A stretch of 64,000 bases of DNA from the NCBI GenBank assembly GCA_903813345.2, contig CAIIXF020000012.1, positions 21,962,184-22,026,183 of the forward strand, read 5' to 3'. Below are positions 21,601 to 62,280 of the stretch, in pieces. Source of the stretch: Owenia fusiformis. Lineage: Eukaryota; Annelida; Polychaeta; Sabellida; Oweniidae. The notes beneath the pieces are model-generated. The model was not told where the DNA came from. It saw only the letters and a program-made list of their open reading frames with translations, and did no database searches. Position 1 is the first letter of the stretch, and the number at the start of each line of letters is the position of its first letter. Position numbers and translations under genes: made by a program.

Positions 21601-24600
21601 TGTCCAGAGCAGACTGTGGACCATTGTACAAAAGGAATGACTTTTAAGTGGTCCATAGTCACATATGAATAAATGACATATCATTTGAAAGAGGAGACAT
21701 GTGGCTTCGTGGTAAACTAAATGGAATTGATGTAACCATCACTGGCTTTATGATTTTGCAATGTTTCTGTCTGCTGCGCTTTTTGAGACACTCAGTACAG
21801 TATATGTACAGGGTGGGTCAAGAAAACATACATATTTTTTATTTCAATATAACTTTTTGAAAACTCATGGATTCAATGAAATCTTCTCTGGACTAAATAC
21901 AGACTTCAGGATATTATTCAAAGCAATAATTTTACAGTGATAGTCAAGCCTCAAATTAAAGTACCAGACTGACATAATATTCTGTCAGAGAATCACATGG
22001 GGTAGGGTGTAGTATTTATTTTATTATGCACCTCCCTCCCTCCTTAATTTACTGTAGATAAATAAAAGATGGTGTTAAATTGTCAAGAAATACTTTATTT
22101 TAAAGAATGGGTCTACTAAAACAGAAGCCGAGCCAAGTATTTTTTTCGAGGATAGGTATTCTGGCATACAGGATGGTTGGAGATCTCATTGCTTCAATAC
22201 TGGATAGAACGAGATCTTACTGCCACTTATGGCAATAGACCCTGCAGCTCTTAACCAATCAGATTTGAGTATTTTAATGAGGTGCATAATAAATTACAAT
22301 TCTGTATGCATCATACATAACATGTCTCTCTAACTCTAAATGCATAACATGTCAATATGGTACTGTTAATACTATTATAATATGATCTGTAAAATGAAGC
22401 CCTCTGATTGGTCAGTTCTTGTGCTGTACCAATCTGTATTGCACAAGGTGGTCCAAAAAATTAAACTTAAAATCATTATTTTTCCTCAAAAATGAGTCGG
22501 ATCCAATTCATTATTTATGATAATGGTATACAGGTTAAAAGTATGTAGGTCAGTCTGTTAGCCAATGAGGGTAGCTAAAGGTAGGTTTATAAGTATACAC
22601 ATTTAGAAGCTTTAGATGGGATCTTCCGGGGGCCCGGTCGAGGGCCTTATTCATATCCCAGGATTCATGTTCTTATTTACAGCAGAAAGTCTACTTCAAT
22701 TTAATAATTGATCAATCTTTAATCAGTATATCGCAAATATGTACTACTACACAGGCAAATTACATTGGACCCCATACACGCCCGTACGGAGCTCGTTGTA
22801 TCAACGGACCCTGTACAACCTCGTACGGGCCTCGTTACGTAATTACGTAATTGCTTGTAATTTTCGAGCCTCGTAAGAGCTTGTGATTACAAGGCCTGTA
22901 ATAGCTCGTAATTCTCGACCCCCGTACTTTACCGTACGGTGCCCGTAACGAGCACCATAATAAATCGTAATTTTCGATCCCCGTACTTGCTCGTACAGTG
23001 CCTGTTACGAGGCCCGTAATAGCTCATAATTTTCGAGCCGTGTACTTGCCTGTGCGATGCCCGTAACAAGGCCCGTTATTGCTCGTAATTTTCAAGCACT
23101 GTACTTGCCCATACGGGGCTCGTAACGAGGCTCGTAATTGCTCGTTTATTTTGATGAATTCTTTTTGATCGATGAAATAAAATACAGCATATATGAGAAA
23201 TGACAATTTAATTATATCCACTTATGAATTAATATGTCTTCAATAATTTCAAAATATTCGCATGTCTGTATCAACATGATAAACAGTAGTATAATAGCTA
23301 GGAAACAAAAGAGGGTTACCAATAAGAGACACCATATTTCTCTACAAGTGAAGTAAATGCATATAAAACCATTTGCGTGCTTTATTAGGATGAGTTGAAA
23401 TGTGATGTAAATAAATGTTATTGCTATCGAATGTGTGAATAAAAACATCATTCTAATATATAATGAATAAACATGGTTTGGCCAAATATGAAATTTGTGC
23501 ATGTTGCATGATAGCAATTAATTTTTTTGTTCGGAGTTCGATAACGGGCCTCGTACGAGCTCGTACGGGCCTCGAAATTGCGAGCCTCGTACATGCTTGG
23601 ACGGGCCTCGGAAACAACAATTACGAGTATCGTACGAGCTCGCACGGGCCTCGAAAACGAGCTTCGTACGCGCCCGTACGAGGATGGTGCTCCTTTTTGC
23701 CCGTAATGACTAGTAAATCTCGAGGCTCATACGGGGCCCGATGTAATTTGCCTGTGTAGTTGAACAGCGCATGTTATCTGTTAAAAATAGTCACTTTATT
23801 TTAAATTAGTTTGAAGGCTAAAAAGACAAACTATGAGGGGAGTACAGATAGTATCTAGCCGATATCATTTTGAAAGAGGTCCATGACGTAAGTCTGCCAC
23901 TTATGAATCGAAATACGCGTAAATAAGAAGTACTAATGAGGTAGGTACATTTCGGCCATTTCCCTTGGTAATGGGCGATAACAAAAAAACGACCTAGCCC
24001 GTACGACAATTTACATTCCCGCACGTTGATTAAATGATTACACGTTAATTGATGCGATTGATTACACATGTGCAATTGAAAAACATAGAATGTCAATTAA
24101 CATAGTATCCGTCAATCAACTACAATGACTTTAATTGACGAGATAAACGTTAAATGATCTAATCGTCTCCACTGTCAAACATTGACTAATTTAATGCATT
24201 AACTTTGTGGTTTGCACCTATAAACTTTACATCAGAGAGAAGTGACTGAACTATGCTCAGTAAAATTTTGGTACATTTTAGAGGAAAAATAAAGGTTTTG
24301 TGTTCAATTAACAAATGTTCCAATTTTATTTGGACCACCCTGTATATAAGTGATAAATCTTATAGGGCACCAGGTTCTACAGCTTTTCCTTATTCACTGA
24401 AGACAACCTACCTGATCACTGGTTGATCCAATATTGTAGACTTTTGAAATTTTAATGGCTTCTTTATTCTGTTTATCCACACCAACAAAGGCTGTGTGTC
24501 TGGATACAACATTAGCTGACACACTCATCAGAACAACATGATTTTTCAATGCATCTGCATTGAGGTCCTCTGTGGGCTTTTCATTTTGGAGTTCCTTGAT

Positions 24601-27600
24601 TTGAAGTTTGGCAGCGAGTCTATGTAGTGTGAGGGACATAGAGGATGTATGAGTAGTAGGGAAATGCAGATGATACTCAAGATTTCTTTGACCACTAGTC
24701 CCAGTCAAAACTGCTCCATAGTTTGGCTCAATAATGCTTGGCTGGAATCATATGCAGAATTGTGACAGATCTTGCTCATAATACATTAAGATTATATAAC
24801 ACTGAGAATATTTTTGCTCTGAAAAGGTAAGGTCCATGGAGACAAGTATTTGTTTTCCCTGTATTGCATGGAATGTTTTCCTTGTATTGCATATACATGT
24901 AGTGTCATATGACATGTTTTTATTGTTAGCTGCATAACACCCATGTACTGCATATACATGTTGGGTCATATGACATGTTGTCCTTGTATTGCATACACAT
25001 GTAAATGTATAGTCATATGACATGTTTTCCCTGTATTGCATATACAGCAGGGACATACGGCATGTTTTCCTTGTATTGCATACAAATGTAGGGTTACATG
25101 ACATGTTTCCTTGTATGTTTAATCAATGGTTGGAATGTTGGGGCTTTGTTTCTAGTAGACAGTTCTTTCTCAATATTCATTTTTTTACTGCTCATAAATT
25201 AATTGTTTATATTTGAAATAGACAGTTATAGAGACATGTACATACCATATTTTGCAGAAGAGCATAAACTACAAACTTTTCATCAGCAAACACTGGTGGA
25301 AACTGCTTGGGTATTTTCACAGCTGATACCCCTTTTGGGAGATTCCATTGAAGGTCAAGGTCACTGATGGACGGCTGCATTGAACATTTCAATGATGACA
25401 TCACCTGATATGATAAAATAAATTATTTTTCAGAACCTTCATTTGCCAACCTACACAAGATTCAGTTGCCAACCTACACGAGCTTTAGACTTTTTACAAA
25501 TTTGATACTGAGAAAATCTTAATAATCTCAAATGTTGTTTTGTGAAGTAATTGAAAGAAAGAATGTATAGGCAGATAATTTAGTTTCATCATAAAAGTGT
25601 ATTAAATATATTCTTATCAAAAGCTTGAAGAGGCATGTCTACATACACACAGATTTTTATGCTGTTAAATATATACCTTTGCTCTTAGATTATCAGATCC
25701 AGTCACAAACTCTGATTTCCCCTTGCCAGCATCAGCCAGACCCTTTACCAAGCTAGTGGATGCCCCATCTCCAATACCAAATGTGAACACCCTAAAACAT
25801 AATGTTCAAATTAGATGTATCTTGGTTTATATATGGTAAAGAAAATGGTGCTTAAGATGCTAAATTGAGAAAATCAATAAGGACTAATTCAATTCAATCA
25901 ATTTATTCAACTATGAACAGGCATGTATTTAAAAAATAACAAGTAACACCATTTCTGGTGTTCTGATACATGATACATGATAAAGCATAATATTATGAAT
26001 ATTAAATACAAGGTAAGGTCAAGGAATCAATGGCATACATGTATTATGGTTGCTCTAAATATAATGGAAATGGTACAAAAAGGTGTCCAGGGGGGGGGGG
26101 TTGAGGTGCACCACAGAGTTAACAAAATTTAGTTTCCAGTCAAGACCAAATGTTCTAGTTTTAAAAGAAATAGAAATATTAATATTACAAGGCATTAACA
26201 TGACAAAATGTCACCACCTAGTTGCTCACAATATTATGAGTTCAAACTTAAGTCAGATTTGAATTTCTGAGAACTTGTAAAGTCAAATTTGAACTTCTGA
26301 AAAGATGTAGATGATTTTGAAAAAAAAATTGGTCAATTTGAAGCAAGTTGAAAACAGACCTTTTTGACCTTGAGAAGGTCATTAAAGGTCAAATCTAAAG
26401 TAAGATTTGAATTTCTGAGAACATGTAGATGATTTTGAAAAAAAAAATTTGAAGCAAGTTGAAAAAAGACCTTTTTGACCTTTTTTGACCTTGAGAAGGT
26501 CAAATGTCAAATCTAAAGTCATATTTGAATTTCTGAGAACATGTAGATGATTTTGAAAAAAAAATTTAGTCAATTTGAACCAAGATGAAAAAATACCTTT
26601 TTGACCTTTTTTGACATTGAGAAGGTCATTGAAGGAGTCAATTTGAAGCAAGTTGAAAAAAGATCTTTTTGACTTTTTTTGACCTTGAGAAGGTCATTGA
26701 AGGTCAAATGTCAAATCTAAAGTCAAATCTAAAGTCATATTTGAATTTCTGAGAACATGTAGATGATTTTGAAAAAAAAATTTAGTCAATTTGAAGCAAG
26801 ATGAAAAAATACCTTTTTGACCTTTTTTGACATTGAGAAGGTCATTGAAGGTCAAATGTCAAATCTAAAGTCAGATTTGAATTTCTGAGAACATGTAGAT
26901 GATTTTGAAAAAAAGATTTAGTCAATTTGAAGCAAGTTGAAAAAAGACCTTTTTGACCTTTTTTGACATTGAGAAGGTCATTGAAGGTCAAATGTCAAAT
27001 CTTAAGTCAAATCTAAAGTCAGATTTGAATTTCTGAGAACACGTAGATGATTTTGAAAAAAAAATTTAGTCAAGTTGAAAAAAGACCTTTTTGACCTTTT
27101 TTGACTTTGAAAAGGTCATTGAAGGTCAAGTGTCAAATCTTAAGTCAAATCTAAAGTCAGATTTGAATTTCTGAGAACATGTAGATGATTTTGAAATTTT
27201 TTTTAGTCAATTTGAAGCAAGTTGAAAACAGACCTTTTTGACCTTTTTTGACCTTGAGAAGGTCACTGAAGGTCAAATGTCAAATCTTAAGTCAAATCTT
27301 AAGTCAGATTTGAATTTCTGAGTACACGTAGGTGATTTTGAAAAAAAAATTTAGTCAATTTGAAGCAAGTTGAAAACAGACCTTTTTGACCTTTTTTGAC
27401 CTTGAGAAGGTCATTGAAGGTCAAATGTCAAATCTAAAGTCAGATTTGAATTTCTGAGAACATGTAGATGATTTTGAAAAAAAAATTTAGTCAATTTGAA
27501 GCAAGTTGAAAACAGACCTTTTTGACCTTTTTTGACCTTGAGAAGGTCATTGAAGGTCAAATGTCAAATCTAAAGTCAGATTTGAAGGTCAAATGTCAAA

Positions 27601-30600
27601 TCTAAAGTCAAATCTAAAGTCAGATTTGAATTTCTGAGAACATGTAGATGATTTTGAAAAAAAAATTAGTCAATGTGAAGCAAGTTGAAAAAAGACCTTT
27701 TTGACCTTGAGAAGGTCATTGAAGGTCAAATCTAAAGTCAGATTTGAACTTCTGAGAACATGTAGATGATTTAGAAAAAAATTGAAGTCAGTCTAAACAG
27801 TATTTTTTAAGTTATAGGAAGTTGTAAGAAATTGTTACAGACACCAACCTCCAACCGCCGGACGCCAACCTCCAACCGCCGGACGCCAACCGCCGTCGCA
27901 AAAAAAACGGAGACCATAACAATATGTCACCACTTTTGGTGGTGACATAAAAAAACGGAGACCATAACAATATGTCACCACTTTTGGTGGTGACATAAAA
28001 AAAACGGAGACCATAACAATATGTCACCACTTTTGGTGGTGACATAATAAACACCATACACTACATCTACATGCCTCTCTGACAGACTGATCCATCTGTT
28101 TCTTTAATTGTACATGTAGGTCATAATTAAACATTGTGAAATTGTAGCATAAACTTAGTTACCTAAAATGCATGCCAATGTCTGACATCCTTTCGTGTTT
28201 AAATATACAGGGTGTCAAAAAACCAAGATATCTGGTACCAAGTGTGATATATCATTGGAAAGGTCTTCCAAAGTTACGTTGATTGGCACATATCTGACAC
28301 ATGTCAATCAATCTCACAAATGTTTACATTGTATCAATTGAGGTGACCATATGCCTAGAAACATGGCAATTTGGCTTATTTGGCAGGATTTTAAGAATCG
28401 GGTATAAGAAAGGTAAAGAGACCAAAAGATGACTAAATATGTTCATGGCGATGAATTTAACCAATTTGTGGATAGGGTTAGATGTGTAGAAAATAGAGGT
28501 GCAAGGAAAGTGGTGAAAACCTTTTTGTAACAAGTGGAATGCGAAAATGAGTAACTTTTTGACGTATTTCTGAGGTCATATCCTTGTCATTTTGACACAA
28601 AAAAGCTACTTAAAGGAGGGCACGTTAACTATAAAAGACATCATAAAAATATAGGTAAATTTCATCCAAAATACTTGAGAGTTGGTGAGTTAACATAACT
28701 TTGAATGATCTTTCCAATGGTATATCTCACTAGGTACCATCTGTTATGGTTTTAGCTGTAGCAGGGGGGACGGGACTTATGTGACACCCTGTAGAGTAAG
28801 AATTATCCTTAAGGGAGAATAAGATCCATAGGGAGTGACAAAATTGTTGACATACCAATATATATCAGACTGAGCAAGTCTTAAAGTCTCAAACTTTAAG
28901 CATCAATCTAAAGTTCATTCACCATGTATATAAAATGAATGTTTTAATGTGATCATATTCATAAATCATCACTATAGTATCTGTATAACTGTTATTAAGA
29001 ATAGAACCATAACGATGCTTCATGATTATCAGACTGAGCAAGTCTTAAAGTCTCAAACTTTAAGCATCAATCTAAAGTTCATTCACCATATATATAAAAT
29101 GAATGTTTTAATGTGATCATATTCATAAATCATCACTATGGTATCTATATAACTGTAATTAAGAATAGAACCATAACGATGCTTCATGATTATCAGACTA
29201 AGCAAGTCTTAAAGTCTCAAAATTTAAGCATCAATCTAAAGTTCATTCACCATATATATAAAATGAATGTTTTAATGTGCTCATATTCATAAATCATCAC
29301 TATGGTATCTATATAACTGTAATTAAGAATAGAACCATACCACTTATCTATGATTATCAGACTGAGCACTGTCATACTAAAGCCCTTTAACTTTAGCATT
29401 GATCTGAAGTATATTTAAACACATTCACCATGTATATAAAATGAATGTTAATGTGATCATATTCGTAAATCATCACTATGATCTGTATTTGTCTTGTGCT
29501 GTTTTAAAAGTAAATTCCAGTAAATAAAATTATTCTACTAAATTTATCCATTTCTTATACCCATTAATTTTATAGCAGTTGCTAAGATTGCTACACTGTT
29601 GTTATATGATATGACAGTCTATGTACAATGTAATTATTAGAACAATGTAATTATCTAAATATAACACTATAAAGTATGCCTTACATTTACGTTTTCTCTT
29701 ATTTCCATTATTGGGCACAAATAGTTCTCATTGCATATATTTAAACTTAAAATTATCCTTAAATTTCAGTATATTTTTCAGTACATTTTTATACTGACTT
29801 TTGCACTTAAATTTCAGTACATTTTTCAGTATATATTTGTACTTAAATTTATCCTTAAATTTTCAGTGTATTTTTCAGTATATTTTTGCACTTAAATTTG
29901 TCCTTAAAATTCAGTACATTTTTCAGCACATATTTATACTTAAATTTGTACTTAAAATTCAGTATATTTTTCAGTACATGAATTTGTACTGAAAAATATA
30001 CTGAAAAAAATTCAGTGCATTTTTCAGTAAATGCTCCTTTCAGTACAAATGCTCTGTCCTAGTGATAATGTTCATTACAATCTAAAATATAATATCTCCC
30101 AAAAGATCCACGATATGTTATAAATTGGTGAAGTTATTAAGGATTCAAAGAACCAAAATTGGGCATAAAAATAGAAAATAATGCATTATGAGCTATTGTA
30201 AAAATCTTCCTCAAATACAGTATACACTTTGGGTATTTTTAGAAAATATATCATGACAAGGAATGATAGGAGTCCAAAATATTCTAAAATTGAAAGAAAA
30301 AATTGTTAAGAGATGTCATCAGTCATATCAGTATCTTGCTAGATATGATTCCGCCTTTAAAAATGTTTTGACTGACCCTGTTGATATGGGACAGTGCACT
30401 TTATATATACCTTGTTGTGTTAACATTATCTTTCACTAGCTTTATGACCTCATCTGTGTTCCACACTGAACCATCAGTTAAAAGAAATATCTAAAATGGA
30501 AAACATTGCATTGTTACCATGCAGTTTGAGTTTTGTAGTAGTTCCAAAATGTGACAAAATAAAATTACATGTCTTGGTTTGCTATGGCAACCCTGGTGTT

Positions 30601-40066: not shown

Positions 40067-41674
40067 TCCCAGCCTTTCAGTAGGTTCGCTTTAGGTGATA
40101 TATTTAACTAGGATTTCTAGGTTCGCTTTAGGTAGTTCCCCATATAAAAACTCCATTGGTAGGTTCGCTTTAGGCGATGTTCAAATATGCTAATTAGGTC
40201 TAGGTTTACTTTAGGTGATCACCTAAAGCGAACCTATAACTACCTATAACTACCTAAACTACCTAAAGCGAACCTAGGTAGGTTCGCTTTAGGTAATTAT
40301 AGGTTCGCTCTAGGTAATTATAGGTTCACTTTAGGTGGTCACCTAAAGCGAACCTGAATCTAATTAGCATATTTGAACATCGCCTAAAGTGAACCTAAAA
40401 CTACCTAAAGCGAACCTACGTAGGTTCGCATTAGGTAAATACTTCCAAGGGCTGGGTTGGCTTTAGACCACCCAGCAGCTGGATGACTTGATTTGTTGAT
40501 TTGAACTGTTTATATATTTCTCACACATTTTGATGCATATATTCTCACGCAAGTACATTTATTTACAATGATGGTCCTAAGCTGGCCTATGGAGGTAGCC
40601 GGGTGTCTGGACCCTACAAACTTGTGAACTGTATAGGCTATATGTCAACTGTTTATTTATTTCTCACACATTTTGATGCTTAGTTTCTCACTCAGGTACA
40701 TTTATTTAAAATTCCTCCTATTTTATATTTGCATGCTTTTATAACACTAAACCTCTTGAATACCAGCCTCTAAAAAGGGTTTGAACCCAGAGTATATTGT
40801 TTATTTTTTGCCAGTTATTTTGATATTTACATCTAAAAACACAACAGTTGATGTTTGATTTCATGAGAATAGTAAACATAGACCCTCATTTTAAAACATC
40901 ATTTGTGAAGATTGGATAAAAATTGCCAAAGTTAGAGCAGTTTTAGTGAAAAATTCTGTGACAGATATATCTGTCATTCTGGGTATTCAAGAGGTTAAAA
41001 TAATATATTGATTGATCATTTGTACACTTACTTACATGTACTTTGTAAATGAGCACTGATGTGATGGTCATTTCAGCATATTTCCCCATTTTCCTGGCTA
41101 TTTCCAAATTTCCTGTCTAACTGATTTTAGTTTGAATATTATACCCACAATGCATTGATACTTCCTGCTATCAGCGCCCCTAGTGGCTGTGACAGAACTT
41201 CTGTTTTGTAGGTTTGCTTTAGGTAGCTTTAGGTAGCTTTGGGTTCGAACCTAAAACTACCTACAAGTTTGAAGTGTTTTAGGTAGATTTAAGATTTTTA
41301 GGTTCGCTTTAGGTAACTCTTGAAGAATGACTATGTTTTTTAGGTTCGCTTTGGGTTCGAACCTAAAACTACCTACAACTTTTCGATTTTTTAAGTGTTT
41401 TAGGTAGTTTTAGGTAACTCTAGATAATTTCTAAGATTTTTTGGTTCGGTTTAGGTAAATCCTGAAAAAGTATAACATTTTTAGGTTCGCCTTAGGTTCG
41501 AACCTAAAACTACCTACAAGTTTCTGATTTTTTTAAAGTGCTTTAGGTAGTTTTAGGTTCGAACCTAAAGCGAACCTACATGAAGTAGGTTCGTTTAGGT
41601 AGCCATCAAATTGTGGGATTCACTTTTAGGTTCGCTTTAGGTTCGAACCTACATCACCTACTGAAAGGCTGGGA
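40067..41674. mobile_element. TIR element filled with AGGTTCGCTTTAGGTAG iterations
   Basis: Ends TCCCAGCCTTTCAGTAGG and CCTACTGAAAGGCTGGGA are exact inverses, flanked by TACA (40063-40066, 41675-41678). 40080-40440 and 41210-41650 are dozens of copies, in both orientations, of AGGTTCGCTTTAGGT / AGGTTCGAACCTAAA. The central 750 bp is ordinary AT-rich DNA. No coding region. Confidence 0.88.
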
Positions 41675-43927: not shown

Positions 43928-45476
43928 CAGAGCTGTCAAGTGTCCCGCGAATGGCGGGATTATCCCGCGAATTTGATCAAAATTAGGCTAATTCGCGTGT
44001 CCCGCAATGTCCCGCGAAGTCCCGCAAATGTGGTTTTTGACCTCCGCGAATTTCCGAAATTTTTGCAATCCCCTATATTGTGATTATCTTATCTTATAAA
44101 AGAAGCTAAGTTTTTGCACTTTTGAGGAGTAAAGTTTACCTAATTTTAAGTACCTAGCATGCTGTTGTTTGGTATCAAAATAAAGAGGAAGGGTTCAATT
44201 TTCATTTTAATTACGAAAATAGGGATGTAGGTCAAAAATAGTTCTAACGTTGGTTTTTACTATCTGTGTGGCCTTCATCTCAGAACTGAGCAAATGTTAG
44301 CAAACGCGAGTTACAATAAATGGACGCTGATGTTCAAATAAAAAGCATTTTAAGGCTCTTTTCGTCCTCTATCATCATATTTCCATTGGTAATGAAAGGG
44401 GGAGGGGGGGGATGCGATCGCACCCCCTCCTGGCTACGCCAATGACATTGTAAGACGATTTGAAAAACAAGACAAATCAATCTTACTCCATTTTCAATAG
44501 TTCGTTTGTTGGTACGTGAATTGTTTTGATTATGATTTCAATCTGTAAATAGCTATCGTTGCTTTAGCAGGGAGGTGACGTGTTAATTTACATGATTTTG
44601 ATTATTAATCATAATTTAAGTTATCCCAATTTTCGACAAAATGTCCACTGAATTGTAAATTGTTATGTCTTACAATGTCATAAGCGTAGCCAGGAGATGG
44701 TGCGATGGTGCGATCGCACCCCCCCCCCCCATAACCGATGAAAATATGGCCATGACGATAGAGGAAGAGGATTTACTACCCGGTACCCGGTTTTTCTACA
44801 ATGCACCCTTTCTAGAAAAGTAACCCCATTCCCTATAATTTGATGTTGATTAATCGAACCCCTATATCATGGGCTTTCAATTGAAAGAAAATGCCATGAA
44901 TAGGTACATTTTAATATATAACATTATGGGGGTAAGCGTTTCATAGTTGGTCATGACGCCAGAAGTGCAAAGTATTGTTCCGAATTTTTGAATTTCGTGT
45001 TAGATTACGGTACTCACACCTGAAGCATGGTTTTTGTTTTTCATAAATTACAATGAAGTATGATAATATTCCTATGCGTATTTTGTGAAATTGTGTTGAC
45101 GTTTATTTAAGTTACAATGTAACGGTGCATTATATTTGATTAATCAGTATCTGAAAGTTTGATTTAAGTACTTTTACACGCTTTTACATTAGTCCCAATC
45201 ACGCAAATCCCTTGAATGTCCCGGGACATCCTGCAAATTTAGGTGGATGTCCCGCGAAATCCCGCAAATTTAGGGCACTTTGTCTAAAAAATCTGTCCCT
45301 CTATGAAGTTTTTGGTGGTACCCCTGTTAACTTTCCCGCAATTAGGGTGTTTGTCCCTCGAATGGTCCCGCGAAATCCCGCGAATTTAGTAGATGTCCCG
45401 CAAAATCCCACAAATTTTGGGCACTTGGTCTAAAAAATCTGTCCCGCGAGAAAATCTTTAGGGGTTGACAGTACTG
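43928..45476. mobile_element. 6-bp-TSD CAG-ended element, copy 1
   Basis: Ends CAGAGCTGTCAAGTGTCCCG and TTGACAGTACTG; target duplication ATAATA (43922-43927, 45477-45482). Both ends carry arrays of TCCCGCGAA/TCCCGCAAA (about ten on the left, similar on the right). Contains the nested GGCGTAGCCAG foldback at about 44345-44750 and the remains of a second one (CTACCCGGTACCCGG near 44776). Confidence 0.88.
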
Positions 45477-45519
45477 ATAATACTCAACAATGCATACTAG
45501 AAAAAATAGTCAGATATTA

Positions 45520-51163: not shown

Positions 51164-51250
51164 AATAACTAGCTGCGCATGATATTGCAAGATCACTTGG
51201 CCATGACCAAAGTTTAGCCCTCCCCATTTTTCATTCATTCAATCAAATCT
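51164..51250 (+). pseudogene. fragment of the same transposon-associated protein (plus copy)
   Basis: Frame on the + strand reads LAAHDIARSLGHDQSLALPI, an inverted duplicate of the minus fragment at 50749-50973. The flank ATCATCTGATTTGGAGGAATGG (51271) is the inverse of 50738-50760, so the two copies form a hairpin around 51015. Confidence 0.5.
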
Positions 51251-51786: not shown

Positions 51787-52268
51787 AGCCCGGTATACAC
51801 CAATGGGGCAAGTTGGGACCTCCATAGACTTAATATTGCGTGGGACCTTTTGGGATTTTGCCCCATGAAGTCCGTGGGACTTTATGGGACTCCGTGGGAT
51901 TTTGCCTCATCGAGTCCCACGAGGTCCCATGAAGTCCCACGTGGGACTCGGTGGGACTCGATGGGGCAAAATCCCAAGGAGTCCCATAGAGTCCCATCGA
52001 GAATGAACATGTTCATTCTTTCCATGGGGCATCGTGGGATTTTCGATCATATGACGTGTTGTGTGAAGCCCGACATACACCAATGGGGCACGGTGGGATT
52101 TGATGGGACTCCATGGGGCTTGATGGGACTCCATGGGACACGATGGGGCAAAGTCATCAAGGTCCCATGGGACTTTGTGGGATTTGATGGGGCAAATTGG
52201 GATTCGATGGGGCAAGATGGGACTCGATGGGGCAAGTGGGATTTTGCCCCATTGGTGTATACTGGGCT
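51787..52268. mobile_element. TIR element filled with GGGACTCGATGGGGC iterations, TAA duplication
   Basis: Ends AGCCCGGTATACACCAATGG and CCATTGGTGTATACTGGGCT; TAA at 51784-51786 and 52269-52271. Neighbouring 170-bp units show the empty site (ATGTAACATAC). Interior is mostly degenerate copies of TGGGACTCGATGGGGCAAA, with a second partial terminus at 52068. TAA fits the TWA preference of PIF/Harbinger. Confidence 0.88.
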
Positions 52269-53757
52269 TAACATACATTTCAAATTATTATGTTAAAAAT
52301 ATGGTTATAGAAAATTCAGATTTTTAAGAAATGTCCAATAATTTTTCTTCATCTTATTTGGGGTATGATAAAACAAGACTATATGCACCATTCTGAGCTC
52401 ATTTGAGATGCATATATTACATATCTTGAAAATTATTATGCTAAAATATGGTTACCCCTGGACCTTCTCAAGCTTAAATGAAAATTTAGAGTTTTAAGAA
52501 TTATCAATCATTTTTCTACATCTTATTAGGGTTAATATGATAAAACAAGACTAGATGCACCATATTGAGCTCATTTGAGATGGATATACATGTATTACAA
52601 ATTTAAAAAATTATTAAGGTGAAATAAGGTTACCCCTGGCCATTCAGAAGCGAAAATGAAAATTAAATTTAAAAAAAATTCCAATCTTTTTTTATTTCTA
52701 ATTAGCAATATTATGACAAAAAAAGACTAGATGCACCATTTTGAGCTCATTTGAGATGGATATATCACATATTTTAAAAATTATTAAGGTATAATATGGT
52801 TACCCCTGGCCATTCAGAATCGAAAATTTGAATTTTTTTTGAATTCCAATCTTTTTTGTATATCTAATCAGCAATAATAAGACGAAACAAGACTAGAAGC
52901 ACCATTCTGAGCTCATATGAGATGCATACATTGACTATCTTAAAAATTATTGAGGTAAGATAAGGTTACCCCTGAGCCAAATGCACCAAAAAAGTGAAAT
53001 TTCGATAATTTTTTTCTCTAAGAATACATCAGCTACCAAAGCAATATTTTCTATCTGCGATAAACACTTATACTTCTATTACTGTGAATTTCTTTAAGAC
53101 TATTAGTCATCACATTCTTGAAATACAGTAATGGACGTCCCATATCTGGCCCTTTAAATAATGAATTTTTCCTGGATAATTGGGTTAAAATGTATTTTCC
53201 TCACTAAATACCACTTCTAAAATGAGTTTTACATAATTTCAAGGCTAAAAGCAATCACCAAATGAAGTCATTTAAGCAAAAATACTTTAAAACCATTTTT
53301 ATTTAATTTTTATAAGTTACCCCCTCCCCACCTGATAGGGGTGGGGGTCAGAGGTAAAAAAAATCAATGAAGACCACCCCTAACCACTTGCCCTGAAATC
53401 ATTTTCCACTCAAATCATATGTTTCTACAAATGTGCCAAGTTTGTTGCTTTCCTGAAAAAGGCGAACAAAAAGGGGTTATATCTGGACATCTGACCCCGC
53501 TATTTGGTCCTCTTATTAGTACATGGCTGCATATTTTGCATAGCCATGCCCATTTTTTAGTTTGACCTATTTTGGGCACCAATTTTTTGGGGCCCCCTCG
53601 GGTCAAGATTGCAGTAAAAATCCCATTGACGACCAGTATAATGTTTCATTTCATAATATATTCATGGGCACAGATCTAGCTCAAAATAAGCATACGGTGA
53701 CCACACCATTTTTGAGATAACTGAATCTGGAGAGAGCTACCACTGTAAAGCTACATG

Positions 53758-55513
53758 CAGAGCTGTCAAGTGTCCCGCGAATGGCGGGATTATCCCGCGA
53801 ATTTGATCAAAATTTGGCTAATTCGCGTGTCCCGCAATGTCCCGCGAAGTCCCGCGAATGTCGGCTTTGACCTCCGCGAATTTTCAAAATTGTAACATTC
53901 CCCGAGGTTTTAAATAGTTGTGATTATCTTGTGATATAAGAAGCTAAGTTTTTGCGCTTTTGAGGAGTAAAGTTTACCTAATTTGAAAAGTGCTGCCAAA
54001 CTCCCAGTGCATCAGATCATCGAAGACTGCTTTTGAAAAGAGCATATAGTCCATTTATAAAACTGTGATTTTGATCCAAATAACACCATATAGTCGGCTT
54101 CTCAAGTACCTATTATGCCGTTATTTGGTATCAAAGTAAAGAGGAAGAGTGCAATTTTCATTTTAATTACGAAAATAGGGATGTATGTCACGTATAGTTC
54201 CAACGTTGGCCTTTTTACTACGCGTGTCACGGCCTTCATCTAAGAACTGAGCAAATGTTAACAAACGCGAGTTCCAATAAATGAACACTGATATCTCGAA
54301 AAGAAACCTGACTCCCTATAATTTGATGTAGATTTATCAAACCCCGATATGAATAGGTACATTTTAATATGTAACACTATGGGGGAGTAAATGTTTCATA
54401 GTTGGTCACGAACACCATAAGTGCAAAGTATTGTTCAGAATTTTTGAATTTCGTGTTGGATTACGGTACTCACAACTAAAGCGTGGTTTTTTGATACAGG
54501 GTGGTCAAAAAATGGAAACCCTGCATTTTCCTTATATCTTTGTCACTTTAAGAGGTTACTCCCTGATATTTCACACATTTGTACATCATTATTTTTCTCC
54601 GACCCTATCATATTTCATGACCATCGGACTAATAGACACAATTTTACAGCACTAAGAATAACATGCTTCTGATTTGGCCATTATCGCGCTGAGGGCAAAA
54701 CAGCACAGTTGTCAATAAGCCGAATGCATTCCTCAGCAGGTATGGCCTGAATGACACAAATGATCTCACTTTTGAGGTTTGCAATTGTCCTGAGGTCATT
54801 CTCATATACTCTATCTCTGCCATATCCCCACAGGTAGGGACATTTTAGACGATGAGTCAAGTTTCCTCATAACCCAATAGTGGCCACTGGGCATGTTCTT
54901 TAGAGTACTGTAACATTGTGACTATCAATCTGATGGTCGTGAAATAAAATAAGCTGGAAGCAAATTGAATGCAGATGTACAAAAGTGTAAAATATCAGGG
55001 AGTTATTTTTTAAAATGACAAAGATATGAGAAAAATGGTATTAGGGTTTCCATATTTTTGACCACCCTGTAGTTTAATTATATTTCTTTGCGTATTGTGT
55101 GGAATTGTGTTGACGTTTACTAAGCCAAGTGCATTATATTTGATAAATCAGTATCTGAAAGTTTGGTTTGAGAAATTTTACATTAAGCCCCAATCACGTA
55201 AATCCCTTTCAAGAATGTCTTGCGACATCCCGCAAATTTAGGTACATGTCCCGCAAATCCCGCGAATTTAGGGCACTTTGTCTAAAAAAATCTGTCCCTC
55301 TATGAAGTCTTTGGTGGTAACCCTGTTAACTGTCCCGCAATTAGCGTGTTTGTCCCTCGAATGGTCCCGCGAAATCCCGCGAATTTGATCAAAATTTGAC
55401 CTATTAGCGCAATCACGCAAATCCCTTAAATGCCCCGCGAAATCCCGCGAATTTTTGGCACTGGGTCTAAAAATTCTGTCCCGCGAGAAAATCTTTGGGG
55501 GTTGACAGTACTG
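53758..55513. mobile_element. 6-bp-TSD CAG-ended element, copy 2
   Basis: Same ends and TCCCGCGAA arrays as copy 1; target duplication TACATG (53752-53757, 55514-55519). It lacks the GGGTACCCGG insertion found in copy 3 (empty site GATATCTCGAAAAG near 54291) but has a mariner-type MITE at 54497-55069. Confidence 0.9.
54497..55069. mobile_element. mariner-type MITE nested in copy 2
   Basis: Ends CAGGGTGGTCAAAAAATGG and CATATTTTTGACCACCCTG, flanked by TA (54495-54496, 55070-55071). Its interior matches the split relic at 17900-18080/19362-19440. Confidence 0.85.
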
Positions 55514-55519
55514 TACATG

Positions 55520-57720
55520 TACCTGTTTCAGAAAATTATTCTGCTCTACATAGTCTCAAAAATCACTCCACCATCTCTAAAAATTCAGTTTCTAACCAAA
55601 CTTGTAAATGTTTCCTGATAGATTAGTACTTACCCTATCGAGAATAAACCTTGATTCATTTATCAAACACTAGATGGCGCTGTGATGGGACAGAAAAGGA
55701 GAAAAGGCTTTTTTATACAGAAAACCAAATAACCAACGGTAACCGCTAGTATCCCTACTCTGGACTATATTCCTCATGTCCGCCAGTGAAGAAATTTTCG
55801 TTTTTGATCGAGAGAGACTCTATCACTTTTCAAGATGGCGGTTGGATTTAAAAGGGGATTCCCCGTTTGACTGGCCCGGAAGTGGCCCGGAAGTACCAAT
55901 AAATGGAGGAATTTGACAGTTGATATAAGTTGTAATCATAGTCAAGCAAAAGAAATCGTAGTCAAGCAAAAGTAATCGTAGTCAAGCAAAAGTCGAATCA
56001 TCTTATCCAGTGCCAGGACTAAAGTCCTGGCACTGGATAAGATGATTCGACTTATTTTTAGTATAAAATAATTTTTTATTTTCCTACACAGGTCACTTCC
56101 TGGTTTCCCTTTTAAAAAGAGAAGACTTTGGAGATCTCAAAAGCACAGTCGAAAAGAATGTTCTGGCGAAAGGGGATTGGGATTCCAAAATTCTTCAAGT
56201 TGGGAAACCCGAATGAAAAAAATGAAGTTACCTTTTTTAATTCCCGAATCTCTCTGAAATTCGCTCATCTTGGTGACTGTAAATTGCACAGCTGTATTCA
56301 ATAAAGTCTTTTCATATTCAATCAGCCTCAATTTTAAGTGCATATTTTATTTTTAACGTTCAATTTCATCATTTTTTGTCGACTGGTACGATCTGGCCGA
56401 GCAAATGGCAAGATGGATGACCCTTGATTTCACCTTGACCAATGGTGATCACGTCATCAATATTATCAAAATGGCAGTTTCAAAATTTTCTAAAATCAAT
56501 TCAAATAATATTATGTTAATTTCTAGCGAGTAAACCTATCTCATAGTTTTGCTATTTCAAAATAAGATAAAGAAATGCGTTAGGAATTCGCTTTTATCCA
56601 CATGTCATATCGACATGTAGTATTCGTAAACTAGACGATGAAGATTACGAAAGCGGGGGGGGGGGGGGTTTGAAATGACGTCACTTCTCAAAAGGAATTC
56701 TCAAGGAGCTGCATAGCAACTGTGGAATAAACAATTGCTGATTGCTAAAGATCAGTCCCTTGCAAAATACTGAGTAATTACTTATTTCTACGGTTCATTA
56801 CGAATCACTTAATAATTATCTTACGAATGAATTCTTACATTATAAATTAACATCTCATAAAATATGTCGAATTTAATCGGTAGGAAACACGAAGAAATAC
56901 ATTTTTAACGATCATTTTTTAAAGTAGGTCAAATTCTTTAGAAGGGTAAACTTCCCGGGAATTTTAGATTGTCACGTCTTGTTTGAGAACAAAAACGAGA
57001 CCTTGCCAAAGGCCCGTATTTTAGCCAGGCGACCTGTTCAAAGTAAATTTTGTATTATAAATCGCATTTCAGAACAATTTAGGAAACAATATTTTCTATC
57101 TACGTCGATTACAAAGAGCATGGGCTCTACCACTGATAGAGCCCATGCAAAGAGCTACAAAGCATCTGAGGTACGTAAATTTATATGAACAACTGAGTCA
57201 ATAGGGATAAATAGCCCAACGAGAGTCCGCGCTTGGATCTTGATTCCAATCCTTGTATTGATATCTTATCTCAGATCTCGTTCGAAGAACGTACTTGACG
57301 TCCGTGCTCAAAAGGGCTCTGCCCGACCGTTACGGTGGCATTCTGGCATAATGTCGGCACTGAAATTCCAATACGGGATACCGGAATATCTGAAGAATCA
57401 ATTAAACTTACCAGAAATCGCAAGATTAAGTGTTTAACATCGATATAAGTGAAGAAAAGTAATCTTTTTCACATCGGAAATGTTTACATTTTGTTTTTAT
57501 CTCCTTTTTGAAGAGTTAAGGGCGCCACCTGGCAAGCGGAAAAACTTGGCAAAAAATGAAAATATTTTTCTTTTTTTCAATTTGAGGAATGACAACGTTA
57601 GATAGCTTGCTGTAGATGTCTTAATTCAATGCAGGAATTATCGATAATCAGGTAAGACATTGATAAATCATGACTATAAACTGTGTTTGTATGAAAGGGA
57701 CCAAATTCACCACCAAAAAC
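55520..57720. other. mostly unannotated stretch with hairpins
   Basis: Holds the hairpin at 55990-56053, a poly-G run (56655-56669) and a hairpin GCATGGGCTCTA/TAGAGCCCATGC at 57118-57148. ORFs of 60-70 codons (56137 -, 56979 +, 57240 +) show no recognisable similarity. Confidence 0.5.
55934..56053. repeat. three short direct repeats leading into a perfect 31-bp-stem hairpin
   Basis: AGTCAAGCAAAAGTAATCGT-type units occur three times (55939-55990). Then 55990-56020 pairs with 56023-56053 without mismatch, loop AA; core CCAGTGCCAGGACT/AGTCCTGGCACTGG. Confidence 0.95.
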
Positions 57721-57833
57721 CACAGGAAGTTGTATCAAGACCTTTTTGGGCCTTTTTTCTCGCCTTTATGAGAGGTGGGGGGGGGGCAAAAGCCCATAAA
57801 GGCCCAAAAAGGTCTTGATACAATTTCCTGTGC
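57721..57833. repeat. foldback hairpin
   Basis: CACAGGAAGTTGTATCAAG and the following GACCTTTTTGGGCC pair with GGCCCAAAAAGGTC and CTTGATACAATTTCCTGTG; about 35-bp arms, one mismatch, loop with a G10 run. Confidence 0.9.
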
Positions 57834-57933
57834 CAAAAACGTTGGCAAAATCTAGACTCAGTCAAAGAAATGTACGAATTCGCGAACGTAGACCCAAAAC
57901 CGCGGTATTCGGTAACGGTGAGGTATTGAATTG

Positions 57934-59926
57934 CAGAGCTGTCAAGTGTCCCGCGAATGGCGGGATTATCCCGCGAATTTGATCAAAATTAGGCTAATTC
58001 GCGTGTCCCGCAATGTCCCGCGAAGTCCCGCAAATGTGGTTTTGACCTGCGCGAATTTCCGAAATTGTTGCAATCCCCTATATTGTGATTATCTTATCTT
58101 ATATAAGAAGCCAAGTTTTTGCACTTTTGAGGAGTAAAGTTTACCTAATTTTAAGTACCTAGCATGCTGTTGTTTGGTATCAAAATAAAGAGGAAGGGTT
58201 CAACTTTCATTTTAATTACGAAAATAGGGATGTAGGTCAAAAATAGTTCTAACGTTGGCCTTTTTACTATCCGTGTGGCCTTCATCTCAGAACTGAGCAA
58301 ATGTTAGCAAACGCGAGTTACAATAAATGACGCTGATATCTAGAAAGGGTTTGTAGAAAAACCGGGTACCGGGTAGTTAATCCTCCATGCTGGGTTCAAA
58401 CTTGGTACCCGGTACCCGGTCAAAAAACGGGTACCCAAAAAACGAAAAATACGAATATAACATAATTAGATTATGAGAAAACGTGTAAGATTTGTTTTGA
58501 ATTCACAAAAATGTATGTATCCTTCAAAATTGAGCTAGAAGCTTCAAATAAAAAGCATATTTAAGGCTCTTTTCTTCCTCTATCGTCATGGCCATATTTT
58601 CATTGGTTATGGGGGGGGGGGTGCGATCGCACCATCTCCTGGCTACACCTATGACATTGTAAGACATAACAATTTACAATTCAGTGGACATTTTGTCGAA
58701 AATTGGGATAACTTAAATTATGATTAATATTCAAAATCATGTAAATTAACACACGTCACCTCCCTGCTAAAGCAACGATAGCTATTTACAGATTTAAATC
58801 ATAATCAAAACAATTCACGTACCAACAAACGAACTATTGAAAATAGAGTAAGATTGATTTGTCTTGTTTTTCAAATCGTCTTACAATGTCATTGGCGTAG
58901 CCAGGAGGGGGTTCGATCGCACCCCCCCCCCCCCCCCTTCATTACCAATGGAAATATGACCATGATGATAGAGGACGAAAAGAGCCTTAAAATGCTTTTT
59001 CTTTGAAGCTTCTAGCTCAATTTTGAAGGAAGTTACATACATTTTTGTAAATTCAAAACAAATCTTACACGTTTTCTAATGATCTAATTATGTTGTATAT
59101 TCATATATTTCGTTTTTTGGGTACCCGGTTTTTTCGACCGGGTACCAAGTTTAAATCCAGCATGGAGGATTTACTACCCGGTACCCGTTTTTTTCTACAA
59201 ACCCTATCTAGAAAAGTAACCCCATTCCCTATAATTTGATGTAGATTAATCGAGCCCCTATATCATGGGCTTTCAATTGAAAGAAAATGCCTACAGTATA
59301 TGAATAGGTACATTTTAATATATATATGGGGGTAAGCGTTTCATAGTTGTTCACGACGCCAGAAATGCAAAGTATTGTTCCGAATTTTTGAATTTCGTGT
59401 TAGATTACGGTACTCACACCTGAAGCATGAAGCATAAAGTTTAATAATATTCCTATATGTATTTTGTGAAATTGTGTTGACGTTTATTTAAGTTACAATA
59501 CAACGGTGCATTGTATTTGATTAATCAGTATTTGGAAGTTTGATTTAAGTACTTTTACACGCTTCTACATAAGTCCCAATCACGCAAATCCTTGAATGTC
59601 CCGGGACATCCTGCAAATTTAGGTGAATGTCCCGCGAAATCCCGCAAATTTAGGGCACTTTGTCTAAAAAATCTGTCCCTCTATCAAGTTTTTGGCGTTA
59701 AACCTGTTAACTATCCCGCATTTAGGGTGTTTGTCCCTCGAATGGTCCCGCGAAATCCCGCGAATTTGAGAAAAAAAGTTGGCCTATTAGCGCAATCACG
59801 CAAATCCCTTAAATGTCCCGCGAAATCCCGCGAATTTAGTAGATGTCCCGCAAAATCCCGCGAATTTTGGGCACTGGGTCTAAAAAATCTGTCCCGCGAG
59901 AAAATCTTTAGGGGTTGACAGTACTG
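57934..59926. mobile_element. 6-bp-TSD CAG-ended element, copy 3
   Basis: Same family as 43928 and 53758; target duplication GAATTG (57928-57933, 59927-59932). It carries the nested 860-bp element at 58346-59205. Confidence 0.9.
58346..59205. mobile_element. foldback element with GGGTACCCGG ends and 8-bp duplication, nested in copy 3
   Basis: Ends AGGGTTTGTAGAAAAACCGG and its inverse before ACAAACCCT; perfect 8-bp duplication ATCTAGAA (58338-58345, 59206-59213). Inside the arms sits a GCGATCGCACC/GGCGTAGCCAG family sequence, and inside that a core bounded by ACATTGTAAGAC/GTCTTACAATGT. An 8-bp duplication fits hAT or MuDR-like elements. Confidence 0.88.
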
Positions 59927-59932
59927 GAATTG

Positions 59933-60433
59933 CGGTAATACCGGCACCAGTTTTCAATACCATTTGGAACACCACCGACCCTCCATGCGATTCCCTGTAA
60001 CCAGTACATGTATATGTAAAAATAGAAACATTTATCTCGAGTCTCTGGCCAAATTACACTGTGGCCGAAGTTACTGAACACAGCTGGCTCAAAAACCTGA
60101 CTTCTGACTTCAGTCAGCTCAGTAGAGCATGTAGAGTTAGGCCGAAGAATAAGGTAAATTTTCACATGTCCTAACTTTTTAGGGCTCTCGCCAGGCTTTT
60201 AGACTGTGGTGCAGCACCACACTCTATTTAGCTCCCTCCACACCCTATTGGCAAATCATGACTGTTTCCATAGTCTAAACTTGACTGAATGTATAATAAT
60301 AACATGTGATTTATCACGATTGAATTGTTGTTCTGAAGATGTTAGTACCACACTCTAAATATTTCCTGTTGAGAGCCCTGCTTTCACAATTCACATGCTG
60401 CTATCTATTGCAAGACTTATGCCTGGCGAAACC
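59933..60433. other. unannotated stretch
   Basis: No gene or element recognised. GCTCAGTAGAGCA (60116) looks like a tRNA A box, but no B box or cloverleaf follows. Confidence 0.5.
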
Positions 60434-61199
60434 GTCACCATGTTATTAAGTATTTTTAAGTTTCGCAAGCATCCTGCCATGACTGTGGTAGTGTTATCGT
60501 GAAACCATTGTCACAGTCATGTCAGGCTTTAACAATTTATCAGGCTTTAACATTACCATGGTCATGACAGGCCTTTCAATCATTGTCACGGTGATATCAG
60601 GCTTTAACATGACCACGGTTATGACAGACTTGCAACCATTGTCACGGTCATATCAGGCTTTTAACTCTTTCATGACTGAAAATTTTTGGGAAAATGGAAA
60701 GAAATGAAAAACTAAAATGTAAATGAATCTAGAAGCAAGAAAAGGAAGCAACAATAAGTTATATATCATGATCTATAGTTCTGCGTTTTCAGATTTTTAA
60801 ATTGAAGTCTCGATAAAAAATTAAATGCTTAAATAATTCCATTTTGAAAAAAATCCCAACTGCACCATCTTGAATTATGACGTCACAATGACACTATCTC
60901 ATTTGCATATTCACATATTTTTTCCAAAATATAAAGTATGGGCCCAGCCCTTCAAAATGATATATAACTTATCGGGTGTTGCTTCTTTTCATGCTTTTCA
61001 TTTTCGTTTCAGCTTTTCATTTTTTTCCGTTTTCCCCAAAATTTATCAGTCACGGAGGAGTTAAAAATATTACCACGGTCATGACAGACCTTGCGATATA
61101 ATAGAGCATTGTCACGGTTATACCAGGCTTTCACGATAACACTACCACAGTCATGGCAGGATCCTTGCGAAACTTAAAAACACTTAATAACACGGTGAC
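60434..61199. mobile_element. foldback element with iterated CACGGTCATGACAGGC motif
   Basis: GTCACCATGTTATTAAGT and about 70 further bases pair inversely with the right end (CACTTAATAACACGGTGAC). Next to the arms (60500-60660, 61060-61140) are degenerate copies of CATTGTCACGGTCATATCAG in both orientations. Flanks not resolved. Confidence 0.75.
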
Positions 61200-61426
61200 A
61201 CATGTTAAAAGATTGTTATTGTCACGTGATTAGTTTGTTGTTTTTCTCACGATTTAGCATGTGGATCAATTTGGATAGGTTGGTATGATTATTTGACAAT
61301 TACCACTGCATAATTCAGTAATTACAGGTGCCCCAATCTATAATCATCGGATAATCACTTTGACTACTTGTAGTCTCACCTCCCTTGATGCCCCATACCG
61401 TAAAAGTTCATCATTGATGACCCTTA

Positions 61427-62280
61427 AGGCCCGGTCACACCGCCCGGGCGTTGCTGGAGCGTTCCTTGAACGTTGAAAAAATTCATCAACGCTCGTCAAC
61501 GCGCACAAAATGGGGAAAAAACAAATACACGGGCATTTGCTTAGCGGTGCACCGCTGAAGCCGGCGTTGCTTTAGCGTTGGTTAAGCGGTTGCGAGCGGT
61601 TGCGAGCGGTAGCTAGCGTTTGTTTAGCGGTAATGCGAGCATTGGTATAGCAGCGTTCTGCGCATGAGAGCGTTGCCTCGGCGGGGGTATAAATAGCAGC
61701 AGCGTTGGTTTAGCAGCATATCGCGTTTGACTACTGAGCTGAACGGATCTATTCTTCTCCACGTATTTATAGCCAAATTCTGGTCCCGCTCCGACACCTC
61801 TATACCAACGCCAAAGCAAAGTTCATCGCCGCCATGGAACGCTGCCACAATGTCCGACACCGTTCCAACAACCCCATGTACGCTGATAAAACGCTAACAA
61901 CCGCTCCACCGACGTTTGTGCACCGTTTAATCGCCGCCCGGGCAACGCTGGCGAAGCAGCAGTGGTCCAGCGTTTAAGATTTCTGCGTTGGTCTAGCGGA
62001 TTCAAGGGTCCACGAACTTGCGTCTAGCGGTGCCAAACTTTGACTGGGCGTTGGTGGAGCGGTGATAAACTTTGCCAGGGCGTAAAATTGTCCCTTTTTC
62101 AACGCTCGCAATAATTTGAGGATGGCCACTCGAGAAACATCCGCGTTGGCCGAGCGTTTACAGCGTTGCTTTAACGGATGCCAACTTTTGTTAAACGGTG
62201 GTGAACGTTTACGAGTGTTGATGATTTTTTTCAACGTTCAAGGAACGCTCCAGCAACGTTTAGGCGGTGTGACCGGGCCT
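61427..62280. mobile_element. TIR element filled with GCGTTG...AGCGGT iterations
   Basis: Ends AGGCCCGGTCACACCGCC and GGCGGTGTGACCGGGCCT, extended inward by GCTGGAGCGTTCCTTGAACG. Flanks TTA and TTG (an imperfect TWA duplication). Interior consists almost wholly of GCGTTGGTNNAGCGGT-like copies in both orientations, far more GC-rich than its surroundings. Its terminus resembles that of the element at 51787. Confidence 0.85.

Follow-up and report, generated by a model that had tools for sequence, protein, structure and literature searches.

Introduction

A 64,000-nucleotide stretch of the genome of the annelid Owenia fusiformis (G000:C12:21962184-22026183; hereafter the window) holds six families of short repeated elements, which we designate by letter and window position as A (22750), B (40068), C (51787), D (60411) and E (61427), with F standing for three further copies. 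We compared these families with the whole genome (498 Mb in 525 contigs) and found in five of them (A, B, C, E and F) a helical phase common to families with unrelated cores, which is what is new here: a short core word recurs near the element ends at steps of 10 or 11 bp. We consider it probable, judging from the DNA sequence, that these are non-autonomous DNA transposons whose subterminal zones are phased rows of binding sites for the transposase or an element-encoded partner. Below we describe the elements, the layout and phase of their core sites and a set of transposase-bearing relatives in layout, and weigh this reading against the alternatives.

Elements of the window and their genomic relatives

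Five families, A, B, C, E and F, are bounded by clean ends and target-site duplications, and each is present genome-wide in at least tens of copies (Table 1). A first-pass annotation of the window had placed elements with inverted ends at A, B, C and E, and all four are borne out, each with many genomic relatives. Inverted arms were detected for A, C, D and E at the window loci; those of B were taken from the sequence, and the B terminal inverted repeat (TIR) words recur as pairs across the genome. The three F copies had also been annotated as a TIR family. Their ends are backed by 6-bp duplications, but the inverted match between them is only about 12 bp long (approximately CAGAGCTGTCAA / CAGTACTGTCAA), and the tips of the window copies and their relatives read as CAGAGCTGTCAA and TTGACAGTACTG. 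Family D is weaker than the others and interrupted: it does have the inverted arms and repeats ascribed to it, but its left end lies near 60411, its right end within the window is not clear-cut, and about 400 bp of its middle are a second abundant inverted-repeat element that is absent from the D relative at C6:28260787-28261079. Nearly all of the scored D hits outside the window cover this nested element alone.

Table 1. Elements and site arrays, in window positions (position 1 is the first nucleotide of the window)
Feature	Position	Strand	Description
Family A element	22750..23756	+	TIR CACAGGCAAATTACAT, 2-bp TA duplication
A left subterminal array	22772..23150		core YCGTA, spacing mostly 10-12 bp
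A right subterminal array	23528..23740		core YCGTA
Family B element	40068..41673	+	TIR CCCAGCCTTTCAGTAGG, 2-bp duplication of varying sequence
B left array	40080..40440		core AGGT(T/A), 10/11 bp
B right array	41210..41660		core AGGT(T/A)
Family F copy 1	43928..45476	+	CAGAGCTG...CAGTACTG, 6-bp duplication ATAATA
Family C element, PIF/Harbinger-like	51787..52268	+	TIR AGCCCGGTATACACC, TWA duplication, TGGG core per 10 bp over most of the element
Family F copy 2	53758..55513	+	6-bp duplication TACATG; TCCCGC cores at each end, almost exclusively on one strand
Family F copy 3	57934..59926	+	6-bp duplication GAATTG
Family D element, interrupted	60411..61199	+	repeats with CATGAC at about 28-29 bp, helical phase not significant
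Abundant inverted-repeat element nested in D	60660..61067 (approximate)		inverted arms and genome hits
Family E element, Harbinger-like	61427..62280	+	TIR AGGCCCGGTCACACCGCC, TWA-like flanks, AGCG(G/T) core at 10-11 bp

With at most one mismatch allowed, the A TIR ends have 186 matches genome-wide (85 + 101; control 1) and the B ends 63 (control 0), and the E ends have 186 exact matches (94 + 92; control 0). The similarity search, in which 40 candidates were scored per family, started from 216 (A), 721 (B), 436 (C), 1030 (D), 128 (E) and 2861 (F) initial candidates; the matching pieces numbered 51 for A (with a 701-base stretch of the element and some flank as the query), 117 for C and 142 for E, and 139 for B, 131 for D and 130 for F, the counts of B and D, and probably that of F, being inflated by foreign repeats within the queries. 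Identity to the majority sequence is 90.3-97.6% in A (n = 11), 98.6-99.8% in B (n = 9), 92.5-98.6% in C (n = 11), 97.0-99.7% in E (n = 7) and 99.2-99.6% in a long form of E (n = 5; L031-L034 and L036) that has about 600 bp of extra middle. In F it is 97.0-98.3% in eight of ten copies and 72% in the other two, which are window copies with different middles. These alignments leave out loci in which one end was not found (L002, L004, L008 and L014 of A, L035 of E) and the D loci L037 and L038.

Two rearrangements were observed within the window elements. A direct tandem duplication of about 640 bp (61832-63111) holds the right half of E with its flank, and the second copy is 99% alike across 468 bp. 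F copies 1 and 3 have a middle segment in common (44333-44768 and 58573-59007) in opposite orientation; in copy 3 it sits in an 87% inverted repeat (58339-59212), as a flipped segment or two insertions would leave it.

The target duplications were counted in copies with both ends anchored, the anchor word having missed an end in 1 of 11 A, 2 of 11 C and 2 of 13 F copies. TA stands on both flanks in nine of the ten A copies with both ends found (of 11); B has equal 2-bp flanks of varying sequence in seven of nine copies; C has equal TTA or TAA flanks in eight of nine (of 11); and F has equal 6-bp flanks in eight of 11 (of 13). For E, an equal 3-bp flank was found in five of 12 copies, the window copy not among them, and TTA or TAA on both sides in ten of 12. 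Since the duplications differ between families, several transposases are probably involved, and the plan of the ends crosses transposon types, with duplications of TA, of any 2 bp, of TWA and of 6 bp. C fits PIF/Harbinger by its TWA duplication; its TIR word is absent from the 37 Harbinger-domain loci read. E probably fits the same superfamily. Elements of the hAT superfamily have CAG...CTG ends and 8-bp target duplications; the F tips (CAGAGCTG / CAGTACTG) match the former rule, but the 6-bp duplication of F departs from the latter.

Motif content and layout of the ends

Iteration of a short motif was measured by counting 6-base words on both strands of each family consensus against the top word of 100 dinucleotide shuffles. 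The leading word exceeds the shuffle maximum in A (21 against 8), B (33 against 16), C (17 against 11) and E (17 against 8), and narrowly in F (17 against 14) and in D (8 against 6; window copy, not consensus). The iterated motif of the first-pass annotation is thus found in all six families at this word length; with 7-base words, E (9 against 10) and D (5 against 5) fail to rise above the shuffle maximum. The motif had further been described as present in both orientations, and sites do lie on both strands of the A, B, C and E consensus sequences. F differs: all 23 exact matches to TCCCGCGAA in the window are on the + strand (0.04 expected in total), and the shorter core of the F consensus is divided 16 to 1 between the strands. 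For all counts of sites, spacers and gaps, the core words were picked after the sequences and word counts had been viewed.

The bodies of the elements had been thought to be packed with motif copies. C is the sole family whose sites fill the element throughout; in A, B, F and long E they occupy two subterminal zones around a nearly site-free middle, and the long and short forms of E each have 31 AGCG(G/T) sites. The zones measure about 80 to 480 bp each, or nearly the whole element in C, and the outermost site lies 12-32 bp inside each end in A, B, C, E and F, in keeping with the earlier remark that motif copies stand next to the terminus. Neighbouring sites 8-13 bp apart fall on the same and on opposite strands 24 and 1 times in B, 27 and 5 in C, 11 and 2 in E, 6 and 2 in F, and 10 and 6 in A.

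Helical phase of the core sites

Among nearest same-strand core gaps of 5-20 bp in the five families, which had been singled out in the first place on motif content and not on phase, 78 of 93 are 10 or 11 bp long (A 14/21, B 23/25, C 26/27, E 9/12, F 6/8). When the sites were moved by up to 8 bp with density and strand kept (5000 trials per family), the means were 2.4, 2.9, 3.1, 1.3 and 0.9, respectively, or about 10.6 in total, with P = 0.0000 in each family. The step is 10 bp in C and F, and both 10 and 11 bp in B and E. A test of lags 5-19 on the consensus sequences agrees: 10 or 11 is the strongest lag in all five families, and the observed strength was reached by none of 300 shuffles in A, B, C and E and by six of 300 in F, where the signal is moderate. 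In the window copies of these families, lags 10 and 11 are among the leaders together with 20-21, 30-31 or 41-42. Lag 11 led in two of the 11 control stretches, both of them Harbinger-domain loci (L057, z 2.5; L073, z 3.8), and the remainder topped at 5-9, 15, 17 or 19.

A stricter phase threshold, set after the window was seen and in the same script as the scan of arbitrary segments, was passed by 25 of 1275 windows of the 64-kb stretch and by none of 585 in three arbitrary 10-kb segments at round coordinates. The passing windows form eight clusters, of which six overlap B, C, E (two), F copy 1 and F copy 3 and one lies in the duplicated half of E; A, D and F copy 2 fail this threshold. The C cluster continues into an adjoining tandem repeat. 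The eighth cluster (57551-57850) lies in none of the elements nor in the duplicated half of E; it stands just ahead of F copy 3 and has a 35-bp inverted repeat (57721-57832).

A phase of this kind could have a structural role: an alternation of GC-rich core and AT-rich spacer every 10 bp would bend the DNA or position a nucleosome and so unite the ends, and would need no sequence-specific protein. The composition in strong (S; G or C) and weak (W; A or T) bases is indeed phased at lag 10-11 in seven elements (z 1.8-5.1), and GC content and nucleosomes have been proposed, in the part of the source available to us, to influence mPing mobility (PMC9921582). Set against this, the exact base is phased as well: base identity within S-S pairs at the best lag is raised in B, C and the transposase-bearing elements L078 and L093 described below (z 3.6-4.2), more weakly in A, E and F (z 1.1-1.7), and within W-W pairs it is phased in E (z 2.6). 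Because base identity is also phased among strong-base pairs, the phase is not GC/AT alternation alone; moreover, the cores lie mostly on one strand, and composition alone would not fix a word of 4-6 bp. We therefore regard a purely structural role as very unlikely. A G-quadruplex reading of the TGGG runs of C was set aside, as it would not explain the cores of the other families.

Transposase-bearing Harbinger elements with the same layout

A genome-wide family search for the DDE_Tnp_4 domain gave 150 matches, of which the first 26 loci (L057-L082) were read; three of them (L078, L079 and L081) pass the phase threshold. In L078 the inverted ends are 63 nt long and match at 94%, parts of DDE_Tnp_4 are found in two open pieces, and both ends bear CG(G/T)T sites with a lag of 11, 20 of the 27 nearest gaps being 10 or 11 bp and the step mostly 11. 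All five relatives of L078 (L083-L087), which are mostly 95-98% alike, exceed the phase threshold close to the left end. The array at the right end recurs in L083 alone; in the stretches read for the other four, no right end was identified. A second Harbinger family comprises L079, its relative L088, and L093, and here too L079 and L088 pass, L079 partly by way of a neighbouring element. L093 has AAGCCCCCCTCACATATGAACGAA ends at 810 and 4853 with TAA flanks, TTCG sites at both ends with a lag of 10 (9 of 13 gaps are 10 or 11 bp), and three open pieces that cover DDE_Tnp_4 positions 1-46, 49-133 and 130-158, the last match being weak (E 0.025). With TIR, TWA duplication and DDE_Tnp_4 transposase together in one element, L093 is a PIF/Harbinger element. 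The first open piece is about 60% identical between the L078 and L093 families, and their cores are nevertheless different. No second gene was identified among open reading frames (ORFs) of at least 90 amino acids in L078 and at least 80 in L093. Among more distant relatives (L089-L092) only L091 passes, with a similar stretch of lag 11 in which no ends were identified. The sites of E and L078 would be compatible with AAC(G/T)G, which we take to be a Myb core.

Unrelated motifs on one plan, as the first-pass annotation had put it, is thus a description that holds across families with different target duplications and extends to two Harbinger families with motifs of their own.

Several neighbouring features were noted at these loci. 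The AAAGC array at L079 was at first a candidate for its own array and was rejected: it belongs to a further short element at about 110-628, in which two blocks of AAAGC sites face each other (lag 10, z 6.6), and the Harbinger element starts near 628 with TTCG sites. L081 has an AT-rich lag-10 stretch at 751-1200 (z 4.4) near a Harbinger-domain fragment, with no inverted ends identified around it. L106 (C4:17883000-17885900) was considered as a link between E and the L078 transposase and rejected, being an L078-family Harbinger element inserted within an E copy at a TTTAA site.

Binding-site arrays, satellites or host factors

How might phased rows of sites serve an element? Each putative site is a family-specific core of about 4-6 bp, and its copies succeed each other, predominantly on one strand, at every helical turn (10, 10.5 or 11 bp). 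Since they are spaced one helical turn apart, the sites of one run face the same side of the DNA. The transposase, or a second DNA-binding protein encoded by the element, with weak specificity for any single site, would bind the row cooperatively as a side-by-side filament or multimer, and this filament may mark and pair both ends before catalytic subunits cut the tips. The layout is what such cooperative side-by-side assembly would be expected to need. Core and protein would change together, and each lineage would in this way have come to its own core. In its broadest form, the proposal is that unrelated cut-and-paste lineages converged on long, strand-coherent phased rows of cores that nucleate a filament, and that core and DNA-binding domain form a rapidly diverging recognition code by which families sharing one genome avoid cross-mobilisation; this we advance tentatively, as a possibility that we rate well short of even.

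Neutral minisatellites are the main alternative to binding arrays. A unit of 10 bp (or of 21 or 31 bp) would have arisen once per end and grown, without function, via slippage or gap repair after excision, the step being inherited from the first duplication. Within the arrays, 23 of 41 indels of at least 5 bp have lengths of 10-11, 20-21, 31-32 or 41-42 bp, against 4 of 32 outside them (three at one E junction), with zones and length classes defined afterwards; whole-turn changes in length would follow from slippage and from selection alike. The first-pass annotation had conceived of the elements as hybrids of miniature inverted-repeat transposable element (MITE) and satellite, a notion that does not suit E: there the repeated part is mainly the short core and the spacers are variable. 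Information in the spacer columns does not exceed about 0.5 bit in E, L078 and L093, and it reaches up to 0.7 in the columns of the next core, the repeat units being anchored on cores so that core columns are high by construction. This scarcity of spacer information speaks against minisatellites, as do the mixture of 10- and 11-bp steps in B and E, the involvement of both ends with the outermost site 12-32 bp inside, and the common 10-11 bp step in five families with unrelated cores. Because the 10-11 bp period is shared by families, binding arrays are favoured over satellites captured independently, and the pure satellite reading is disfavoured; we think neutral growth unlikely. Nor are the arrays absent from most of the copies aligned, as independent capture would have it: apart from the two rearranged F window copies, aligned copies are at least 90% identical to the array-bearing consensus, although they were found by whole-element similarity (for A, with the flanked 701-base stretch), which favours array-bearing copies.

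A host transcription or architectural protein might bind the arrays instead. Cooperative factors typically use several short sites in phase. Since the cores differ among families of one genome, however, no single host factor would suit every family, and we hold this explanation to be highly improbable.

A number of observations weigh against binding arrays. The first concern the repeats themselves. A, C and F keep more spacer similarity between units, and Tandem Repeats Finder (TRF) calls tandem units in all six families (A 59, 26 and 43; B 21 and 10; C 10, 20 and 30; D 29 and 56; E 10; F 31), as minisatellites would lead one to expect. The array indels include 18 of 41 with other lengths, and slippage between in-register copies would also preserve steps of 10-11 bp. 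Amplification of the motif by selection for mobility, which the first-pass annotation had supposed, finds no backing in the comparison of subfamilies: motif columns change no less than spacers in seven comparisons, none of them significant (smallest p 0.055, in C), so that there is no sign of constraint on the core.

The second concern the reach of the phase. In D, lag 10 or 11 tops but is not significant, with 40 of 300 shuffles equally strong and a TRF spacing of about 28-29 bp. The halves of A taken separately are led by lags 26 and 36, and the right part of F copy 2 alone by lag 9. When 500-bp windows were scored, lag 10 or 11 alone led in 6 of 12 for A, 10 of 18 for B, 7 of 7 for C, 2 of 10 for D, 6 of 11 for E, and 7 of 18, 1 of 19 and 5 of 22 for F copies 1, 2 and 3, compared with 46 of 513 outside the elements. 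Among the first Harbinger-domain loci, 23 of 26 fail the phase threshold, 16 of the 26 being cut at about 1.5 kb of flank. L078, L079, L091 and L093 came to attention through the phase score or by way of a locus that had done so; chosen in this manner, they show that transposase-bearing elements with this layout exist, not how frequent they are. Even in IS607-family elements, according to the portion of the source consulted, motifs are not always spaced 10-11 bp (PMC6188088).

The third concern the autonomous partners that the first-pass annotation had envisaged: among the loci and TIR pairs examined, none was found that belongs to A, B, C, E or F. For A, no TIR pair exceeds 1.1 kb among 100 listed of 186 ends. 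For B, long TIR pairs of 2.7, 3.7 and 12 kb (on C7, C10 and C12) appear interrupted from their BLAST pieces. For C, the TIR word, which was the sole probe, had no match in the 37 Harbinger-domain loci. For E, a 3.0-kb TIR pair (L105) was tried as a partner and rejected as an interrupted long-form E with no ORF of at least 85 amino acids; two longer pairs (6.0 and 7.4 kb) among the 100 of 186 ends listed also appear interrupted, three further pairs of 1.8-2.4 kb on C7 are known from end matches alone, and long E has one ORF without a Pfam match. For F, 8 of 138 loci with the hAT domain (PF05699) were read, none with F ends or arrays; none of these eight passes the phase threshold, although a weaker signal at lag 11 is present in one of them, L096 (excess 0.153, z 4.7).

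The interrupted-looking B copies (C7:19338709-19341372, C10:7998859-8002514 and C12:377500-389506) have pieces that overlap at the break by 5 bp on C7 and C12 and by 9 bp on C10, overlaps that resemble target duplications of other, later-inserted elements. Elsewhere in the window lie two tandem arrays, one of a 104-bp unit (482-2139; 15.9 copies, 96% matches) and one of a 92-bp unit (36938-37863; 10.1 copies, 97% matches).

Comparison with known systems

The first-pass annotation had called this kind of element poorly described. For the repeats as such this does not stand: in the parts of the sources available to us, eukaryotic transposases or their partners use several subterminal sites in Hermes (PMC10368747), CACTA (PMC2613891) and Galileo (PMC3688188), bacterial IS607 elements have comparable motifs (PMC6188088), and mobile elements with tandem repeats, MITEs included, have already been described (Tetris; PMC4079207). 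Docking repeats near ends are therefore known, and the unusual point is that elements of several kinds have phased runs of such length and regularity. A literature search, most subscription journals lying outside it, turned up helically phased repeats in the IS607 family (PMC6188088) and no paper that pairs transposon subterminal repeats with the helical turn.

Among hAT elements, the accessible text on Hermes describes short AAGT sites inside both ends that are bound by the BED domains of a multimeric transposase (PMC10368747), whereas hAT repeats are characterised, in the section seen, as variable in spacing and orientation (PMC6188088); F has 6-bp duplications and phased cores. In the CACTA elements Tgmt*, the two borders bear motifs particular to the family, in direct and inverted orientation, across 159 and 732 bp, and such subterminal repeats are bound by TNPA-like proteins, with motif and protein suggested to co-diversify; their motifs, however, are 17 bp long and lie in stem-loops, the TIR and duplication are different, and helical phase is not mentioned in the portion consulted (PMC2613891). 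Foldback-like elements resemble ours in having end repeats with several binding sites for a THAP domain (Galileo; PMC3688188) and end repeats that can seed satellites (Tetris; PMC4079207), but the passages available on Galileo describe long tandem monomers, long TIRs and three mapped sites (PMC3688188). PIF/Harbinger and Tourist-type MITEs, as far as the excerpts go (PMC9921582, PMC2836001), share the TWA duplications of C and probably E, and L078 and L093 carry the DDE_Tnp_4 transposase; Ping ORF1 has a Myb-like domain, and subterminal motif arrays are not described for mPing/Ping in the text seen (PMC9921582).

If phased binding rows are confirmed, they would bear on two open questions: why transposon ends bear many subterminal repeats, and how a protein with a preference for 4-6 bp selects two transposon ends in half a gigabase. 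To both, a helically phased row would be a concrete and testable answer. Independent families with different cores in one genome are natural replicates for such tests, and phase could help locate the ends and protein partners of orphan MITE families from sequence.

One close parallel is bacterial. IS1535, a member of the IS607 family, has four helically phased 9-bp motifs that nucleate the cooperative assembly of transposase into a filament, which then captures the second end; as in our elements, the repeats are short, direct and near the ends, and the end sequences are unrelated between elements, to the extent that the source was available (PMC6188088). Repeat steps of 10-11 bp inside the ends are found in A, B, C, E and F, but not in D. 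IS607 elements differ, on the same partial reading of that source, in using a serine recombinase, in lacking TIRs and target duplications and in having four sites over about 40 bp (PMC6188088). If the proposal is true in its broadest form, the elements described here would be a eukaryotic, DDE-transposase counterpart of the IS607 filament.

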